The translations under genes were made by a program, and so were the position numbers. Positions 17,587 to 26,018 of a stretch of DNA of 64,000 bases are shown piece by piece. The notes below the pieces were generated by a model. That model was not told the DNA's origin. It searched no databases and saw only the letters and a program-made list of their open reading frames with translations. How positions within the stretch are numbered: the first letter of the stretch is position 1; every line of letters begins with the position of its first letter. This DNA is from Erwinia tasmaniensis Et1/99 (lineage in GTDB: Bacteria > Pseudomonadota > Gammaproteobacteria > Enterobacterales > Enterobacteriaceae): positions 2,790,001-2,854,000 of the forward strand of contig NC_010694.1 in assembly GCF_000026185.1 (NCBI RefSeq). Reading direction: 5' to 3'.

Positions 17587-19941
17587 CTATTTGGCAGTCA
17601 CAACCTGCATACCATTAGGCGCATTTTGCAGCGCCAGGGCTAACACTTCTTCGATACGTTTCACCGGGTGGATTTCCAGGTCGGCAATGACGTTTTCCGG
17701 GATTTCCTCAAGATCGCGCTTGTTTTCATCCGGGATCAGCACCGTTTTAATGCCACCGCGGTGGGCTGCCAGCAGTTTCTCTTTCAATCCACCAATAGGC
17801 AGAACCTGACCACGTAGCGTGATCTCACCAGTCATGGCAACATCAGCACGCACCGGATTACCGGTAAGGCAGGATACCAGCGCGGTACACATGGCGATAC
17901 CTGCGCTTGGACCATCCTTAGGCGTTGCCCCTTCAGGCACGTGTACGTGAATGTCACGTTTTTCGTAGAAATCACCGTTGATACCCAGTTTCTCTGCACG
18001 AGCACGCACGACCGTCAGCGCCGCCTGAATCGATTCTTGCATCACTTCACCCAACGAACCGGTGTAGGTCAGTTTGCCTTTGCCAGGAACGCAGGCGGTT
18101 TCGATGGTTAACAGATCGCCACCGACTTCAGTCCACGCCAGACCGGTAACCTGCCCTACACGGTTTTCGCTGTCGGCACGGCCGTAGTCATAACGCTGCA
18201 CGCCGAGATAATCTTTCAGGTTATCCGCGTTAATTTCAATATGCTTAACAGACTTGTCCATCAGCAGCGTTTTTACCGCTTTGCGGCACAGCTTGGACAG
18301 TTCACGCTCCAGGCTACGCACACCCGCCTCACGCGTGTAGTAACGAATAATGCCAACGATAGCGCTATCGTCAACGGTCAGCTCGTGTTCTTTCAACGCG
18401 TTGCGTTCGATTTGCTTCGACAGCAGGTGCTGTTTGGCGATATTGAGCTTTTCGTCTTCGGTGTAGCCGGAAAGACGGATCACTTCCATACGGTCCAGTA
18501 GCGGAGCCGGAATATTCATCGAGTTAGACGTCGCAACAAACATCACGTCAGAAAGATCGTAATCGACTTCCAGATAGTGATCGTTGAAGGCGATGTTTTG
18601 TTCCGGATCGAGCACTTCCAGCAGTGCGGAGGCGGGGTCGCCACGCATATCCGACGACATTTTGTCAATTTCATCCAGCAGGAACAGCGGGTTTTTTACC
18701 CCTACTTTCGCCATTTTCTGGATTAGCTTGCCCGGCATCGAACCAATATAGGTACGACGATGCCCGCGGATCTCGGCTTCATCACGCACACCACCCAGCG
18801 CCATACGCACGTATTTGCGCCCGGTCGCTTTGGCTATGGACTGTCCGAGGGATGTTTTACCCACGCCAGGAGGTCCAACGAGGCACAGGATAGGGCCTTT
18901 AATTTTGCTGACGCGACTCTGCACAGCCAAATATTCGAGGATGCGATCTTTGACACGTTCCAGGCCGAAGTGGTCAGTATCCAGCGTTTCCTGCGCTTTC
19001 TGCAGGTCTTTTTTCACCTTGCTGCGCGCATTCCACGGTACCTGCACCATCCAGTCAATGTAACCACGAACCACGGTCGCTTCTGCCGACATCGGCGACA
19101 TCATTTTTAGCTTTTGCAGTTCGGCTTCGGTTTTTTCACGCGCTTCTTTCGGCATTTTGGCCGCATCGATTTTGCGTTTCAGCGCTTCATTTTCGTCCGG
19201 CGCATCGTCCATCTCGCCAAGCTCTTTCTGAATCGCCTTCATTTGCTCATTCAGATAGTATTCACGCTGACTTTTTTCCATCTGCTTTTTAACGCGATTG
19301 CGGATACGTTTCTCAACCTGCAGCAGGTCGATTTCCGATTCCATCATCGCCATCAGATATTCCAGACGCTCATTGACGTCTGACATTTCCAGCACCGACT
19401 GTTTATCCGCCAGCTTCAAAGGCATATGGGCGGCAACGGTATCAGCAAGGCGCACCGCGTCTTCAATGCTGTTAAGTGAAGTCAGGACTTCCGGCGGGAT
19501 CTTTTTGTTCAGTTTGATATAGCCTTCAAACTGATTAATCGCCGTACGCACCAGCACTTCCTGCTCGCGTTCTTCAATTTCCGGTGACGTCAGATACTCC
19601 GCCTGGGCGCTAAAATGATCGCCGTTATCGGATAAGGTCGTGATGCGCGCGCGCTGTAATCCTTCCACCAGCACTTTAACCGTGCCATCCGGCAGCTTTA
19701 GCATCTGCAAAATGGAGGCAACGGTTCCGACTGAGAAGAGGTCGTTAATACCAGGCTCATCCGTTGAAGCTTCTTTCTGAGCGACCAGCATGATCTTTTT
19801 GTCATGATCCATGGCGGCTTCAAGGCAGCGAATTGATTTTTCACGACCGACAAACAACGGAATGACCATGTGCGGATAAACCACTACGTCACGCAACGGC
19901 AACACAGGGATTTCAATGCGTTCAGAACGCTCAGGATTCAT
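17587..19941 (-). CDS. lon: ATP-dependent protease Lon
   Basis: Cytoplasmic AAA+ serine protease of 784 residues, full length. The N-terminal substrate domain occupies about residues 1-300. The AAA+ module has Walker [10 protein letters not shown] and Walker [10 protein letters not shown]. The proteolytic domain contains the catalytic serine in PKDGPSAG (about 679) and the lysine in [14 protein letters not shown] (about 722). It degrades misfolded proteins and regulators such as capsule and cell-division control proteins. It has its own heat-shock-type promoter at 20028-20055 and is followed by hupB. Confidence 0.98.
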
Positions 19942-20131: not shown

Positions 20132-21406
20132 TTATTCACCAGATACATGCTGAACGTCCGGTTTGCCGTAAATCAGCAACGGCTCGCTTTCTCCGGCAAT
20201 AACCGATTCGTCAATGACCACTTTTTCCACGTCATCCACCGACGGCAAATCGTACATGGTGTTCAGCAGCGCGGCCTCAACGATTGAACGCAGCCCGCGC
20301 GCGCCGGTTTTGCGCAGCATCGCCTTGTTGGCGATGGCCTTCAGCGCCTCTTCCCGGAACTCCAGCTCCACGCCTTCCAGATTAAACAGCGCCTGGTACT
20401 GCTTGGTCAGCGCATTTTTCGGCTCGCGCAGGATCTGGATCAGTGCTTCTTCGCTCAGCTCGGTCAGCGTCGCCACCACCGGAAGACGTCCGATAAATTC
20501 CGGGATCAGGCCGAATTTAATCAGGTCTTCAGGCTCCACCTGCGCCAGCAGCTCGCCTTCCGTTGCCTTCTCTGACTTGCCCTTCACCGATGCACCAAAG
20601 CCGATGCCGCTGCCGCTGTCCACGCGCTGCGAAACCACCTTGTCCAGTCCGGCAAACGCGCCGCCGCAGATAAACAGGATTTTCGAGGTGTCCACCTGCA
20701 GAAACTCCTGCTGCGGATGCTTACGCCCGCCCTGCGGGGGAACCGCGGCCACCGTTCCTTCAATCAGCTTCAGCAGCGCCTGCTGAACGCCCTCGCCCGA
20801 CACGTCGCGGGTAATCGACGGGTTGTCCGACTTGCGCGAAATCTTGTCGATTTCATCGATGTAGACGATGCCACGCTGCGCCTTCTGCACGTCATAATCG
20901 CACTTCTGCAGCAGCTTCTGAATGATGTTTTCCACGTCTTCACCCACGTAGCCCGCTTCGGTCAGCGTGGTGGCATCCGCCATGGTGAACGGCACGTCAA
21001 GCAGCCGTGCCATCGTCTCGGCGAGCAGGGTTTTACCGCTTCCCGTTGGGCCTATCAGCAGAATGTTGCTTTTACCCAGCTCGATACCGTTGCTGGTGTC
21101 GCCGTTACGCAGACGCTTATAGTGGTTGTAGACCGCGACCGACAGCACCTTCTTGGCGCGCTCCTGACCGATAACGTAATCGTCAAGATGGTGGCGGATC
21201 TCATGCGGCGTGGGCAGCGAACTGCGCTCGCGGTGCGGTGCAATCTCTTTGATCTCTTCGCGAATGATGTCGTTGCATAAGTCAACGCACTCATCGCAGA
21301 TGTATACTGACGGGCCGGCAATCAGCTTACGCACTTCATGCTGGCTTTTGCCGCAAAAAGAGCAGTACAGCAGCTTCCCTGAACCGTCCTTGCGTTTGTC
21401 TGTCAT
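20132..21406 (-). CDS. clpX: ClpX unfoldase, lon-proximal copy
   Basis: AAA+ unfoldase that delivers substrates to ClpP; 424 residues. The N-terminal zinc-binding domain has C15, C18, C37 and C40. Walker A GPTGSGKT, the pore loop GYVG, the ClpP-docking IGF loop (about 268-270) and the sensor regions are all intact. It differs from the second copy (22386-23660) at only ten bases from 20185 to the start codon, with one amino-acid change (Ile36 versus Val). The last ~19 codons are clearly different. Its tail PLLIYGKP resembles E. coli ClpX more than the other copy does. It is transcribed divergently from the ClpP-like gene at 21718 and is not downstream of the canonical clpP. Confidence 0.95.
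20185..21406 (-). repeat. Near-identical ~1.2 kb repeat, copy 1 (within clpX)
   Basis: This stretch pairs with 22439-23660 at an offset of 2254 bases. Differences are only at 20279, 20285, 20317, 20444, 20573, 20897, 21301, 21302, 21389 and 21398. Identity stops sharply on both sides: the last ~53 bases of the gene and everything upstream of the ATG are different. Confidence 0.95.
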
Positions 21407-21717
21407 CGGTTAGCCTCATACCTGGTTCACAACGGAACTGAAATGTTCTGTCGCAATTAACTCCTGCTGAATCTTAATATAGTTCATTTTCCCGTTAAAC
21501 TGGGACAACAGCACAATATTCCACCATGTGCAGTGCTCAGAAAGGCCATTTTGCATGTTATTTGGCGACATTGCGCTAAAGCAGAAAAATTAGAGGTGAA
21601 CTTCGCTTAACATGCTGTTTTAAATAATAAATAAGCGGAAACATTCGACTTGATTTAGCTGCTAACTGGATTATGCTAAACTCTGGTCACTTTAAATGAA
21701 TCCGACGGAGTCTAAGC
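21407..21717. other. Divergent intergenic region between clpX copy 1 and the ClpP-like gene
   Basis: 311 bases without a gene, AT-rich in the half next to the ClpP-like gene. It must hold promoters for both directions. A rightward promoter is described at 21650-21677. Leftward, a TATATT hexamer is visible but no convincing -35. I see no sigma-32 motif for either gene and no hairpin with a U-tract. Confidence 0.5.
21650..21677 (+). promoter_or_regulatory. Candidate promoter of the ClpP-like gene
   Basis: TTGATT (21650-21655) and TATGCT (21672-21677) are 16 bases apart, a fair sigma-70 pattern about 40 bases before the start codon at 21718. Confidence 0.45.
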
Positions 21718-22314
21718 ATGTCTGAAGAGCCAGAGAAAAAAGAAGAAAACGGCCAGGAAGAGAAGAGCTCTGCGCTGGCAGTGAATAAACTGTTGCAGTC
21801 ACGCTCTATTATCATTTCAGGTGAGATTAACCAGGCGCTCGCCGAGAAAGTGACGGCTCAACTGCTGATCCTCCAGGAAATGGGCGATGAACCCATCAAG
21901 CTGTTTATCAACAGCCAGGGGGGCCATGTTGAAGCCGGCGACACCATCCATGACATGATTAGGTTTGTCAGACCTGAAGTGCTGGTTATCGGTACGGGTT
22001 GGGTGGCCAGCGCCGGTATCACTATTTTCCTCGCGGCCAACAAAGAAAACCGTTATACGCTGCCAAATACCCGCTTTATGATCCACCAACCGCTGGGCGG
22101 CGTACGCGGTAAGGTTTCAGATATTGAGATTGAGGCGAAAGAGCTGCTGCGCGCGCGCGCGCGTATCAATCAGCTTATCAGTAATGCGACAGGCCAACCG
22201 CTGGAGAAGGTGGAAAAGGATACGGACAGTAACTACTGGATGAGTCCGGAACAGGCGATTGATTACGGGATCGCCACCCACGTCATCACTTCGTGGAACG
22301 AGCTGAAGGCGTAA
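21718..22314 (+). CDS. Second ClpP-type serine protease (ClpP2-like)
   Basis: A 198-residue member of the ClpP family that is clearly different from the canonical ClpP at 23758. The catalytic triad is intact: Ser98 in GWVASAG, His123 in FMIHQPLGG and Asp168 in EKDTD. The canonical propeptide and axial-loop region is replaced by a highly charged Glu/Lys N-terminus (residues 2-17), so ClpX docking and gating may differ. Distinctive segments are INSQGGHVEAGDTIHDMIRF and YWMSPEQAIDYGI. It resembles the divergent ClpP2 proteins known in other proteobacteria such as pseudomonads. It lies head-to-head with one clpX and tail-to-tail with the other, inside the region that is simply clpP-clpX-lon in E. 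coli. ACGGAG precedes the ATG. Confidence 0.92.
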   Translation: MSEEPEKKEENGQEEKSSALAVNKLLQSRSIIISGEINQALAEKVTAQLLILQEMGDEPIKLFINSQGGHVEAGDTIHDMIRFVRPEVLVIGTGWVASAGITIFLAANKENRYTLPNTRFMIHQPLGGVRGKVSDIEIEAKELLRARARINQLISNATGQPLEKVEKDTDSNYWMSPEQAIDYGIATHVITSWNELKA

Positions 22315-22332
22315 TGCGCTTTAGCCTGATAT

Positions 22333-22367
22333 AAAAACGGCCCGCTTCTGACTGGCGGGCCGTTTTT
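22333..22367. terminator. Bidirectional terminator between ClpP-like gene and second clpX
   Basis: AAAAACGGCCCGC and GCGGGCCGTTTTT form a perfect 13-base stem with a nine-base loop. A/T runs on both sides make it a good terminator for both convergent genes. Confidence 0.92.
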
Positions 22368-22385
22368 ATTTGCATAACAAATGGA

Positions 22386-23660
22386 TTATTCTCCAGATGC
22401 CTGCTGCGTGTCTGCCTTACGATAAATCAGCTGCGGATCGCTTTCTCCGGCAATAACCGATTCGTCAATGACCACTTTTTCCACGTCATCCACCGACGGC
22501 AAATCGTACATGGTGTTCAGCAGCGCGGCCTCGACGATCGAACGCAGCCCGCGCGCGCCGGTTTTGCGCAACATCGCCTTGTTGGCGATGGCCTTCAGCG
22601 CCTCTTCCCGGAACTCCAGCTCCACGCCTTCCAGATTAAACAGCGCCTGGTACTGCTTGGTCAGCGCATTTTTCGGCTCGCGCAGGATCTGGATCAGCGC
22701 TTCTTCGCTCAGCTCGGTCAGCGTCGCCACCACCGGAAGACGTCCGATAAATTCCGGGATCAGGCCGAATTTAATCAGGTCTTCAGGCTCCACCTGCGCC
22801 AGCAGCTCGCCTTCCGTTGCCTTCTCGGACTTGCCCTTCACCGATGCACCAAAGCCGATGCCGCTGCCGCTGTCCACGCGCTGCGAAACCACCTTGTCCA
22901 GTCCGGCAAACGCGCCGCCGCAGATAAACAGGATTTTCGAGGTGTCCACCTGCAGAAACTCCTGCTGCGGATGCTTACGCCCGCCCTGCGGGGGAACCGC
23001 GGCCACCGTTCCTTCAATCAGCTTCAGCAGCGCCTGCTGAACGCCCTCGCCCGACACGTCGCGGGTAATCGACGGGTTGTCCGACTTGCGCGAAATCTTG
23101 TCGATTTCATCGATGTAGACGATGCCACGCTGCGCCTTCTGCACGTCATAGTCGCACTTCTGCAGCAGCTTCTGAATGATGTTTTCCACGTCTTCACCCA
23201 CGTAGCCCGCTTCGGTCAGCGTGGTGGCATCCGCCATGGTGAACGGCACGTCAAGCAGCCGTGCCATCGTCTCGGCGAGCAGGGTTTTACCGCTTCCCGT
23301 TGGGCCTATCAGCAGAATGTTGCTTTTACCCAGCTCGATACCGTTGCTGGTGTCGCCGTTACGCAGACGCTTATAGTGGTTGTAGACCGCGACCGACAGC
23401 ACCTTCTTGGCGCGCTCCTGACCGATAACGTAATCGTCAAGATGGTGGCGGATCTCATGCGGCGTGGGCAGCGAACTGCGCTCGCGGTGCGGTGCAATCT
23501 CTTTGATCTCTTCGCGAATGATGTCGTTGCATAAGTCAACGCACTCATCGCAGACATATACTGACGGGCCGGCAATCAGCTTACGCACTTCATGCTGGCT
23601 TTTGCCGCAAAAAGAGCAGTACAGCAGCTTCCCTGAACCGTCTTTGCGTTTATCTGTCAT
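22386..23660 (-). CDS. clpX: ClpX unfoldase, clpP-proximal copy
   Basis: Second full-length ClpX, 424 residues, with the same zinc fingers (C15, C18, C37, C40), Walker A GPTGSGKT, pore loop GYVG and IGF loop as the copy at 20132. It sits 97 bases downstream of the canonical clpP on the same strand, the usual operon position. GAGAGGGAAG precedes the ATG. The C-terminal tail ([17 protein letters not shown]) differs from copy 1 and departs from the E. coli tail at PLLIYGKP. Since the body is essentially identical to copy 1, recent duplication or ongoing gene conversion is likely. Both copies appear functional. Confidence 0.95.
22439..23660 (-). repeat. Near-identical ~1.2 kb repeat, copy 2 (within clpX)
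   Basis: Partner of 20185-21406, in the same orientation, about 1.0 kb away from it. Ten mismatches, nine of them synonymous. Direct repeats of this length allow deletion or amplification of the ClpP-like gene between them by homologous recombination. Confidence 0.95.
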
Positions 23661-23757
23661 TTACTTCCCTCTCATTGTCGCGCTTATCTTCCCACCGGGG
23701 GAGTACAAGCAGACCGCGGCCGGCGAAGGCAACGGTTATCTGTCAGCACAGACTTAA

Positions 23758-24381
23758 TCAATTACGCTGGGCTAAGACTGAATCCACTAAACCATATTCC
23801 ACGGACTCACTGGCCGACAGGAAGCGATCGCGATTGGTATCGCGCTCAATGGTTTCAATCGTCTGGCCGGTATGTTTTGCCATCAGCTCATTCATCATCT
23901 GTTTGGTTTTGATGATTTCGCGCGCATGAATATCAATATCTGAAGCCTGGCCCTGGAAGCCGCCCAAAGGCTGGTGGATCATGACGCGTGAATTAGGCAG
24001 GCAGTAACGCTTACCTTTTGCGCCAGCAGTCAGTAGGAAGGCTCCCATAGAACAGGCCTGCCCCATACAGATAGTGCTGACGTCAGGTTTAATGAACTGC
24101 ATAGTATCGTAAATTGACATACCTGCGGTAATCACGCCACCGGGAGAATTGATATAAAGATGGATATCTTTTTCTGGATTCTCCGCTTCCAGGAACAGCA
24201 TCTGCGCGACGATCAGGTTAGCCATATGGTCTTCAACCTGACCGGTCAGGAAAATAATGCGCTCTTTAAGTAGGCGCGAGTAGATGTCGTATGAACGCTC
24301 TCCGCGAGAGGTTTGTTCGACCACCATTGGCACCAAGGCCATATGAGGTGCTGTTAGTTCACGTTCGCCACTGTATGACAT
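23758..24381 (-). CDS. clpP: ATP-dependent Clp protease proteolytic subunit ClpP (canonical)
   Basis: Tetradecameric serine protease, 207 residues as in E. coli. The N-terminal propeptide region ([20 protein letters not shown]) is present. The catalytic serine is in MGQACSMGA, histidine in VMIHQPLGG and aspartate in IERDTNRD. The ATG at 24381 is supported by CAGGAG; a longer frame to 24405 is ignored. It works with ClpX or ClpA. clpX copy 2 follows in the same operon, a sigma-32-like promoter lies upstream, and tig precedes it as in E. coli. Confidence 0.97.
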
Positions 24382-24519
24382 TACCGTCTCCTGGATATAT
24401 TTCATTAGGCAACACTCTGTCGCGATTCTACTTGAGAGCGTTCAGGAACACTACGATTCCTGGCCTGACTACCCGATGCCATCCGGACAATGATCGGGCC
24501 CGATGACTTCATTGTAACC

Positions 24520-24713: not shown

Positions 24714-26018
24714 TCAGGCCGTAGCGGTCTGGTTCATCAGTTCCTGGAAGTTTGTTGCTTTTTCCGTCACTTTTGCTTTTTCCAGCACGGCTTCAACAGC
24801 CTGCTCTTCCAACGCAACGTTACGCATATTGTTCATCAGCTCGTTGTTTTTGCTGTAGAACTCGATCACTTCTGATGGATCTTCGTAAGCTGAAGCCATC
24901 TCTTCGATCAATGCGTTAACGCGGGTTTCGTCAGCTTTTAACTCGTGAGTGCGAATAACTTCACCCAGCAGAAGACCCACCACTACGCGGCGTTTTGCCT
25001 GCTCTTCAAACAGTTCACGAGGAAGTTCAAGAGCCTGCTTCTCATCGCCACCGAAGCGCTGTGCTGCCTGGCGCTTAAGAACGTCAATCTCACCGTCAAC
25101 CAGCGCGGCAGGAACGTCGATATCGTTAGCTTTTACCAGACCGTCAATTGCCTGAGTCTTCACGCGGTTACGCACGGCACCTTTCAGTTCACGCTGCATG
25201 TTCTTACGAACTTCTGCACGCAGACCGTCCAGAGAACCCGCTTCAACGCCGAAACGTTTAATGAATTCTTCAGTTAGCTCTGGCAGTTCACGTTCTTCAA
25301 CTTTCTTCAGCACGATGTCAAACTTCGCTGCTTTACCTTTCAGGTTTTCAGCGTGGTAGTCTTCCGGGAAGTTGACGTCGATAGTGAAAGTTTCGCCCGC
25401 TTTGTGGCCAACAACGCCCTCTTCGAAGCCTGGGATCATACGACCCTGGCCCATCGCCAGTACGAAATCGGACGCTTTGCCGCCTTCAAACTCTTCACCG
25501 TCTACAGAACCGCTGAAATCGATGGTTGCGCGATCTTCGGCTGTCGCTGCGGCATCGGTTTCTTTCCAGGTGGCCTGCTGCTTGCGCAGAGTTTCCAGCA
25601 TGGTATCAACGTCAGCTTCTGTGACTTCAACAACCGGTTTTTCAACTTCGATTGCATCCAGCCCCTGCAGCTCAACTTCTGGGTAAACTTCAAACTCGGC
25701 AGAGAAGGTAAAGTCTTCACCGATTTTGTACTCGCCCGGCACGTACTGAGGCGAGCCAGCCGGGTTAATTTTTTCTTTGATGATCGCATCAACAAAGTTA
25801 CGCTGCATCAGATCGCCCAGCACGTCCTGGCGAACGGAAGCACCGTAACGCTGTGCCACTACGGTCATCGGCACTTTGCCTTTACGGAAACCATCGATGC
25901 GTACTTTCTTAGCTACGCTGACCAGCTCACTTTTCACCGCGTTTTCGATCACATCTTTATCAACGGTAATCGTTACGCGACGGCCCAGGCCCTGAGTTGT
26001 TTCTACTGAAACTTGCAT
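24714..26018 (-). CDS. tig: Trigger factor
   Basis: Ribosome-bound chaperone and peptidyl-prolyl isomerase of 434 residues. The ribosome-binding tail carries the signature GFRKGKVP (about 43-50). The FKBP-type isomerase domain is about 150-245 and the C-terminal arm region extends to the end. Length and order (bolA, tig, clpP) match E. coli. A candidate sigma-70 promoter lies about 160 bases upstream. Confidence 0.98.

Follow-up and report, generated by a model that had tools for sequence, protein, structure and literature searches.

Clp proteases whose core combines two different ClpP proteins are already known. ClpP1 of Listeria monocytogenes (PDB 4jcq, 4ryf, 6sfx) carries a Ser-His-Asn triad; according to excerpts of PMC5361862, the asparagine selects an inactive heptamer and ClpP1 is active only with its partner, the mixed complex having an about 7-fold better apparent affinity for ClpX. 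In Pseudomonas aeruginosa, ClpP2 (PDB 7m1l) is a partner in a ClpX-bound ClpP1/ClpP2 core, going by the title of entry 9ndj, and part of PMC12900304 describes how one divergent ClpP of the Pseudomonas pair, which does not bind ClpX, boosts the activity of the mixed particle. Myxococcus xanthus possesses several ClpP and ClpX per genome (two clpP and three clpX; excerpt of PMC11423568). Here we analyse a 64,000-nucleotide stretch of the Erwinia tasmaniensis Et1/99 chromosome (NC_010694.1, positions 2,790,001 to 2,854,000; hereafter the window), in which a second ClpP gene, clpP2, lies inverted between two clpX genes; for Erwinia, the mixing of the two ClpP proteins is proposed from sequence.

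The clpP2 module and the family of its second ClpP

The gene order at the locus is lon, clpX-A, inverted clpP2, clpX-B, clpP and tig or, as read on the minus strand of the window, tig, clpP, clpX-B, (clpP2 inverted), clpX-A and lon. Coordinates and reading frames agree with the original prediction of two full-length clpX genes, an intact inverted ClpP paralogue and clpP:

20132-21406, minus strand: clpX copy A (clpX-A, adjoining lon), 424 aa; TIGR00382, E 4.1e-212
21718-22314, plus strand: clpP2, 198 aa, Listeria ClpP1-type by sequence (Ser98-His123-Asn172); NF009205, E 2.8e-81; PDB 4jcq, E 2.7e-74
22228-22233, plus strand: ClpP2 codons Ser171 (arginine-sensor position) and Asn172 (catalytic-acid position)
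22386-23660, minus strand: clpX copy B (clpX-B, downstream of clpP), 424 aa; TIGR00382, E 6.5e-212
23758-24381, minus strand: clpP, ordinary Ser-His-Asp, with remodelled handle and oligomerisation sensor; TIGR00493, E 2.4e-108, and diagnostic sites
23833-23835, minus strand: ClpP codon Asn183 (mature 169), acidic in 83 non-module rows

The homologue and gene-order search recovered the module intact well beyond the window. At an identity of at least 85%, clpP2 is found in 16 of the 37 genomes of the genus, in all 16 inverted between two clpX genes, and one of the eight genomes of a related genus (G331) possesses the full module. We call the genus of 37 Erwinia, a label which rests on the source genome and three named relatives.

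ClpP2 is a Clp peptidase: PF00574 matches over the whole domain at 216.1 bits (gathering score 20.2), and the NCBIfam subfamily model NF009205 (PRK12553) scores 272.1 bits, above its curated cut-off of 228, with an E value that excludes a chance match. The equivalog model NF011089 (PRK14512) reaches 217.7 bits, under its curated cut-off of 251. Alignment to solved structures upholds two members of the originally predicted triad, Ser98 and His123, and removes the third: Asp168 falls on the non-catalytic E. coli position 167, while the place of the catalytic Asp171 of E. coli is taken by Asn172. Ser and His are retained, with Asn at the acid site, in all 17 module ClpP2; the same Asn is present in 29 of 29 orphan ClpP2 (those encoded away from clpX); of the 31 orphan loci, L134 and L135 are the most distant and carry Asp. 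A scan of named genomes returned 533 related loci, of which the best 80 are all Ser-His-Asn.

Both sequence and predicted fold point to the same relative. ClpP2 scores 252 bits against Listeria ClpP1 versus about 148 or less against E. coli ClpP chains. Its predicted structure (mean predicted local distance difference test score 83.7; handle helix at residues 137-158, with residues 125-134 of low confidence) finds as top match the chains of 4ryf, the Listeria ClpP1/2 heterocomplex, at 60% identity; Listeria ClpP1 occupies ranks 1-5, followed by the P. aeruginosa ClpP1/ClpP2 complex and ClpP2. As the original prediction had it, the N-terminus is charged and without the canonical leader and axial-loop sequence, which is visible in the alignment. 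Residues 60 and 92 are Lys and Thr in all 17 module ClpP2, versus Tyr and Met in E. coli and Thr and Thr in Listeria ClpP1; we take these two positions to line the ClpX-docking cleft. The gene is under strong purifying selection, with a median ratio of nonsynonymous to synonymous substitution rates (dN/dS) of 0.045 over 131 pairs. Judged by alignment and fold, ClpP2 is thus of the Listeria ClpP1 (Ser-His-Asn) type; its loss of the sensor arginine, described below, is not taken as family-defining and marks a variant within that type.

The triad asparagine, Lys60/Thr92 and the charged N-terminus would also suit a low-activity regulatory or decoy ring that damps ClpXP. There is only a slim chance of this, as Ser98 and His123 are retained in 17 of 17 proteins and, in excerpts of PMC5361862, the Listeria mixed complex with ClpX is some ten-fold more active than the homocomplex.

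Reciprocal changes at the ring interface

ClpP was compared, in mature numbering, over 104 rows, 21 from module genomes and 83 others (82 genomes, since G009 enters twice). The module rows comprise the 17 in which clpP2 is seen and those of the broken assemblies G013, G014, G031 and G789, whose ClpP carries the same kind of residues. Ten positions are diagnostic (133, 136, 143, 145, 148, 161, 163, 169, 190 and 191); eight fall among the 50 positions of the handle and sensor (123-172) and two among the other 143, a clustering with a Fisher p of 3.7e-4 and, by permutation within classes of equal conservation, p 0.0018. The same rule applied to three control clades returned position 193 only. Residue 169 is Asn (16) or Gln (5) in 21 of 21 module rows and acidic (Glu or Asp) in 83 of 83 others, as well as in ten of ten further genomes, while positions 136, 143 and 161 each hold one residue in 82 of the 83 non-module rows. 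Inside the module lineage the changed sites vary little.

ClpP2 is altered on the opposite side. Excerpts of PMC9035409 assign two elements to the ring interface, a QXT motif and the oligomerisation-sensor Arg (E. coli 145-147 and 184, which, with 14 subtracted in our conversion, are mature 131-133 and 170), and those of PMC6110781 and PMC9823225 describe an acid-Arg salt bridge across the rings at sites 169/170. Site 170 of ClpP2 is Ser in all 17 module proteins and Arg in 105 of 106 relatives (Tyr in one); site 131 is Lys in all 17, the 106 relatives having Gln in 83 and Lys in 3 cases. A ClpP-ClpP pairing opposes Asn/Gln to Arg, and a ClpP2-ClpP2 pairing Asp to Ser. With partners assigned by homology, only the mixed pairing, ClpP Arg170 with ClpP2 Asp169, would retain both members of the bridge.

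The ClpP changes accompany clpP2 and not the twin clpX, at least in the genomes compared, because G022, which possesses twin clpX genes separated by a 400-bp spacer and no clpP2, encodes ordinary ClpP residues at the diagnostic sites.

We consider it probable that one ring of the core is made of ClpP2 and the other of ClpP, with ClpX feeding this mixed core from the ClpP side. A ClpP2 heptamer would stack on an ordinary ClpP heptamer, giving a two-subunit Clp protease; ClpX would dock on the ClpP face, leaving the ClpP2 ring distal, and substrate would pass into the mixed chamber. ClpP would have been re-tuned at its equator for ClpP2 through the 169/170 pair, so that homotypic stacks each lose one bridge residue and the mixed form would be preferred or needed. 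As for the docking side, Listeria ClpX seems not to bind via the ClpP1 ring in excerpts of PMC5361862.

Several observations weigh against this reading. A figure legend in PMC9035409 states that LmClpX can bind either Listeria ring. The interval 123-172 was picked when the differing sites had already been seen once, which makes its p-values optimistic, and the diagnostic changes of ClpP2 itself are not significantly equatorial (6 of 12, p 0.09). In 30 genomes with orphan ClpP2, ClpP is without the module residues at 136, 145, 148 and 169 and has Glu/Asp169, Arg148, Glu136 and Val/Ile145 throughout, with scattered module-like residues elsewhere; the ClpP changes therefore mark this module and not ClpP2 as such. 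The only one of the 106 non-module ClpP2 without Arg170 comes from Enterovibrio, whose ClpP keeps Asp169; as an independent test of the reciprocal 169/170 rule, this counts against it. Essentially, the swap arose once in evolution (with the Asn/Gln split in addition), linkage could carry ClpP changes given that clpP adjoins the module, and clpP2 is not visible in 4 of the 21 module rows (G013, G014, G031 and G789). The Enterovibrio gene (Enterovibrio sp. ZSDZ35, L246, 4869-5522) encodes Lys131 together with Tyr170.

Linkage bears most directly on the view that the ClpP changes are passengers, derived from a diverged donor ClpP or from relaxed constraint, with no adaptation to ClpP2. All module carriers form one clpP clade, and the median dN/dS of clpP is 0.019 in module genomes versus 0.009 in 14 module-free Erwinia. 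We regard this view as unlikely: several of the sites that changed are otherwise near-invariant, the sites cluster at the equator and then hold almost constant, and G022, with its twin clpX, does not share them.

ClpP2 might instead be an independent homomeric protease, served by ClpX from copy A and acting on substrates of its own. Each clpP-type gene does have a clpX neighbour, clpP2 and clpX-A diverge from conserved promoter-like elements, and orphan ClpP2 at 65-72% identity occurs in 39 of 392 family genomes sampled, the 30 orphan-bearing genomes above lacking the key equatorial residues in ClpP. The same-site asparagine, however, keeps Listeria ClpP1 mainly as inactive heptamers in excerpts of PMC5361862, both the bridge Arg170 and the QXT Gln131 are replaced in 17 of 17 proteins, two docking-cleft positions are changed and clpX-A bears no sign of specialisation, which makes an independent protease improbable.

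Of the original prediction, the specialised or mixed protease gains support from the ClpP1 type, the purifying selection and the equatorial changes of ClpP. Its other proposal, that each ClpP has its own clpX and a second ClpXP machine is possible, is not supported. ClpP2 differs from E. coli at two docking-cleft positions (Tyr60 to Lys and Met92 to Thr, in 17 of 17), so a place as second ring in a single machine is more likely for it than a role as core of a separate one. The near-identity of the clpX copies, to which we now turn, tells against it as well.

Twin clpX genes and proposed movement of the module

The two clpX genes are 98.04% identical. Their 1275 nt show 25 differences, of which 15 crowd into the final 52, and the proteins differ at 8 of 424 residues, 7 of which lie within residues 408-421. 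In a tree of the first 1200 bases, built from 15 module genomes and G022 (G019 was excluded for ambiguous bases and a frameshift in clpX-A), copies A and B are sisters within the genome in 14 of 16 genomes; in the close species G003 and G004, A pairs with A and B with B. Divergence between the copies in 15 genomes is 0.67-6.0% in the body and 2.8-37.5% in the tail, the tail exceeding the body in 14 of the 15 (the G001 pair, misaligned by a 3-nt insertion, is omitted from this count). Sister copies within genomes that share one layout indicate that the clpX copies evolve in concert: the duplication predates these species and, as the trees read, the copies have repeatedly overwritten each other. 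Homogenised to 8 differing residues in 424, they do not look like two specialised motors; the second clpX would rather be an extra copy for dosage or expression, its identity maintained by gene conversion. Direct repeats flanking clpP2 should permit its loss by recombination, and its persistence, with a dN/dS near 0.045, argues for selection. In G019 (L033), the flaws in clpX-A are probably a matter of sequence quality, possibly decay of one copy.

Repeats of 98% identity also invite assembly errors, and three genus assemblies (G013, G014 and G031) break inside clpX, their contigs ending there on the clpP and lon sides with the middle absent. We read these breaks, where clpP2 is not seen, as a sign of a collapsed repeat. 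An assembly error, or a recent functionless tandem duplication, is nevertheless refuted by recurrence and carries a negligible probability. Besides the source genome, 15 genomes of the genus show the layout, of which six have it on contigs of at least 3.8 Mb, and outside the genus it is seen in G331; the tails of the two copies diverge by as much as 37.5%, and across one pair of close species each copy groups with its own counterpart.

Loss of clpP2 and a half-acquired module are both candidates for G022, in which (L058, 6620-9562), by eye, the tail of copy B resembles the module genome G025 and that of copy A the single-copy genomes. A single clpX is present in 17 of the 37 genus genomes, one of which (G009) has a 50% ClpP2-like gene elsewhere. 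In the related genus, the five genomes examined besides G331 have a single clpX, and the contig of G789 stops just past clpP, with no clpX match. In this related genus (g130), G786 is the sole one of the eight genomes without a match to the ClpP2 query at 1e-30, the others matching at least ordinary ClpP.

In the wider family, ClpP2 finds a match at 1e-45 or better in 49 of 392 genomes sampled, 39 of which show 65-72% identity across most of the protein. Among 32 family or order loci checked, only that of G331 has clpX in its flanks (about 1.5 kb). Within the best 80 of the 533 related loci, a position between two clpX genes is confined to E. aphidicola, E. rhapontici and E. phyllosphaerae, and relatives range from Clostridia, Listeria and Enterococcus to Azospirillum; the family therefore looks old and mobile. 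ClpP2-like genes also recur on plasmids: of the 173 records, 31 are from Klebsiella, with 43-45% identity among the rows listed, and one of 4.1 kb is from Staphylococcus epidermidis (54% identity).

The module seems to have moved between the two genera as a block. The tig and lon genes of G331, and tig of G789, cluster with their own genus, and for tig a single clade of all module carriers is rejected (p 9.7e-6). The first 207 bases of G331 clpP average 95.7% identity with its own genus and 83.7% with module Erwinia; over the last 207, which code for the handle and sensor, the figures are 73.2% and 80.2%. By these segment identities G331 clpP is a mosaic, and the incoming block appears to have carried the part of clpP that encodes the equator. 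Against this, an approximately unbiased (AU) test on whole clpP leaves a grouping of G331 and G789 with their own genus unrejected (p 0.172). At third codon positions the two fall with their own genus (support 92; placement with module Erwinia not rejected, p 0.207), and first and second positions unite them with module Erwinia (support 100; a clade with their own genus, p 0.0716), the short clpP of G035 being left out of both trees. For these reasons the mosaic is claimed from segment identities only. Transfer within Erwinia is unsupported by the rpoB-rpoC tree, on which module carriers need two changes and the starred branches force one; this tree excludes G031 and G032, which have no rpoB match, and was used without an AU test.

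A more ambitious scenario is possible, if somewhat doubtful. Acquisition of a Firmicute-like ClpP and a reciprocal salt-bridge swap would have yielded an obligate two-subunit ClpXP whose housekeeping ClpP pairs poorly with itself, and a clpP(3' part)-clpX-clpP2-clpX cassette would move between genera, its twin clpX kept identical by gene conversion.

The rest of the locus consists of putative regulatory elements and flanking genes:

17587-19941, minus strand: lon, flanking gene
21407-21717, strand not assigned: divergent intergenic region between clpX-A and clpP2, aligned for 17 module genomes and G022
21650-21655, plus strand: candidate clpP2 -35, TTGATT, read from the sequence; surroundings largely, not fully, conserved
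21672-21677, plus strand: candidate clpP2 -10, TATGCT, 16 nt from the -35; TAGCATAAT (reverse strand) invariant in 17 module genomes
22331-22369, strand not assigned: 15-bp perfect inverted repeat, likely terminator shared by convergent clpP2 and clpX-B
24714-26018, minus strand: tig, flanking gene

Genes clpP2 and clpX-A are divergent, with 311 bp between them, and clpP2 and clpX-B convergent over 71 bp that hold the common stem-loop; in other module genomes, stem-loops likewise lie between the clpP2 and clpX-B stop codons, as judged by eye from printed sequences. The clpP2 promoter is a candidate resting on conservation. Upstream of clpX-A is an element of its own, CTATATTA, with few changes across the 17 aligned module genomes; G022, without clpP2, retains this element and parts of the leader. 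A sigma-70 consensus scan found 2 sites versus 3.4 expected and reported neither the clpP2 nor the clpX-A element, no search having been aimed at heat-shock promoters. For clpP, a further in-frame ATG lies at 24405. The genome of the window (G000) comprises 4,067,864 bases in 6 contigs, with a chromosome of 3,883,467, and holds only two matches to ClpP2 at E 1e-3 or better, clpP2 and clpP. In G001, clpX-B and clpP2 are separated by a 360-aa reading frame (L046, 6250-7332), and between clpP and clpX-B there is a clpX-like start that runs into a stretch of N. The product of the 360-aa frame presumably resembles a membrane acyltransferase.

Comparison with known Clp systems

Protein evolution has long posed the question of how a homomeric ring turns into an obligate heteromer. 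This genus offers close relatives that have or lack the second subunit and that differ at a few named equatorial residues in both partners, in the E. coli-like background where ClpXP is best studied, and the comparison is directly testable. The E. coli machine cannot simply be taken as the model for ClpXP in part of Erwinia, and clpP or clpX knock-outs there may need to reckon with second genes. Passages of two reviews searched for these genes, PMC12910134 and PMC6386880, treat ClpXP of Erwinia amylovora as a single machine; 'clpP' is absent from the main text of the former and 'clpP2' from that of the latter. Among the matches listed in a literature search of titles and abstract starts, covering few subscription papers, there was no paper on this Erwinia arrangement.

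Erwinia ClpP2 resembles Listeria ClpP1 in its about 60% identity, its Ser-His-Asn triad, its lack of a canonical axial N-terminus and its place as top sequence and fold match; unlike ClpP2, Listeria ClpP1 retains Arg170 and the QXT Gln131, the ordinary ClpP of L. valentina retains Asp169 in contrast to module ClpP, and no clpX lies within the flanks of the two Listeria loci examined. P. aeruginosa ClpP2, the second-best match at about 45% identity, differs in its triad Asp, Glu169 and Arg170. Orphan enterobacterial ClpP2 (Enterobacter, Lelliottia, Kosakonia and others) share 65-77% identity and the Ser-His-Asn triad, whereas they are without an adjoining clpX (31 of 32 loci examined), have Arg170 in 29 of 29 cases and coexist with a ClpP that does not carry the four module residues. 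The extra copies of M. xanthus, as described in part of PMC11423568, are isolated and functionally divergent, unlike the adjacent and homogenised genes of Erwinia. Set beside these systems, novelty seems to lie in the twin clpX, the reciprocal equatorial changes and the transfer of the block, which would make this a variant of the mixed Clp proteases already known.

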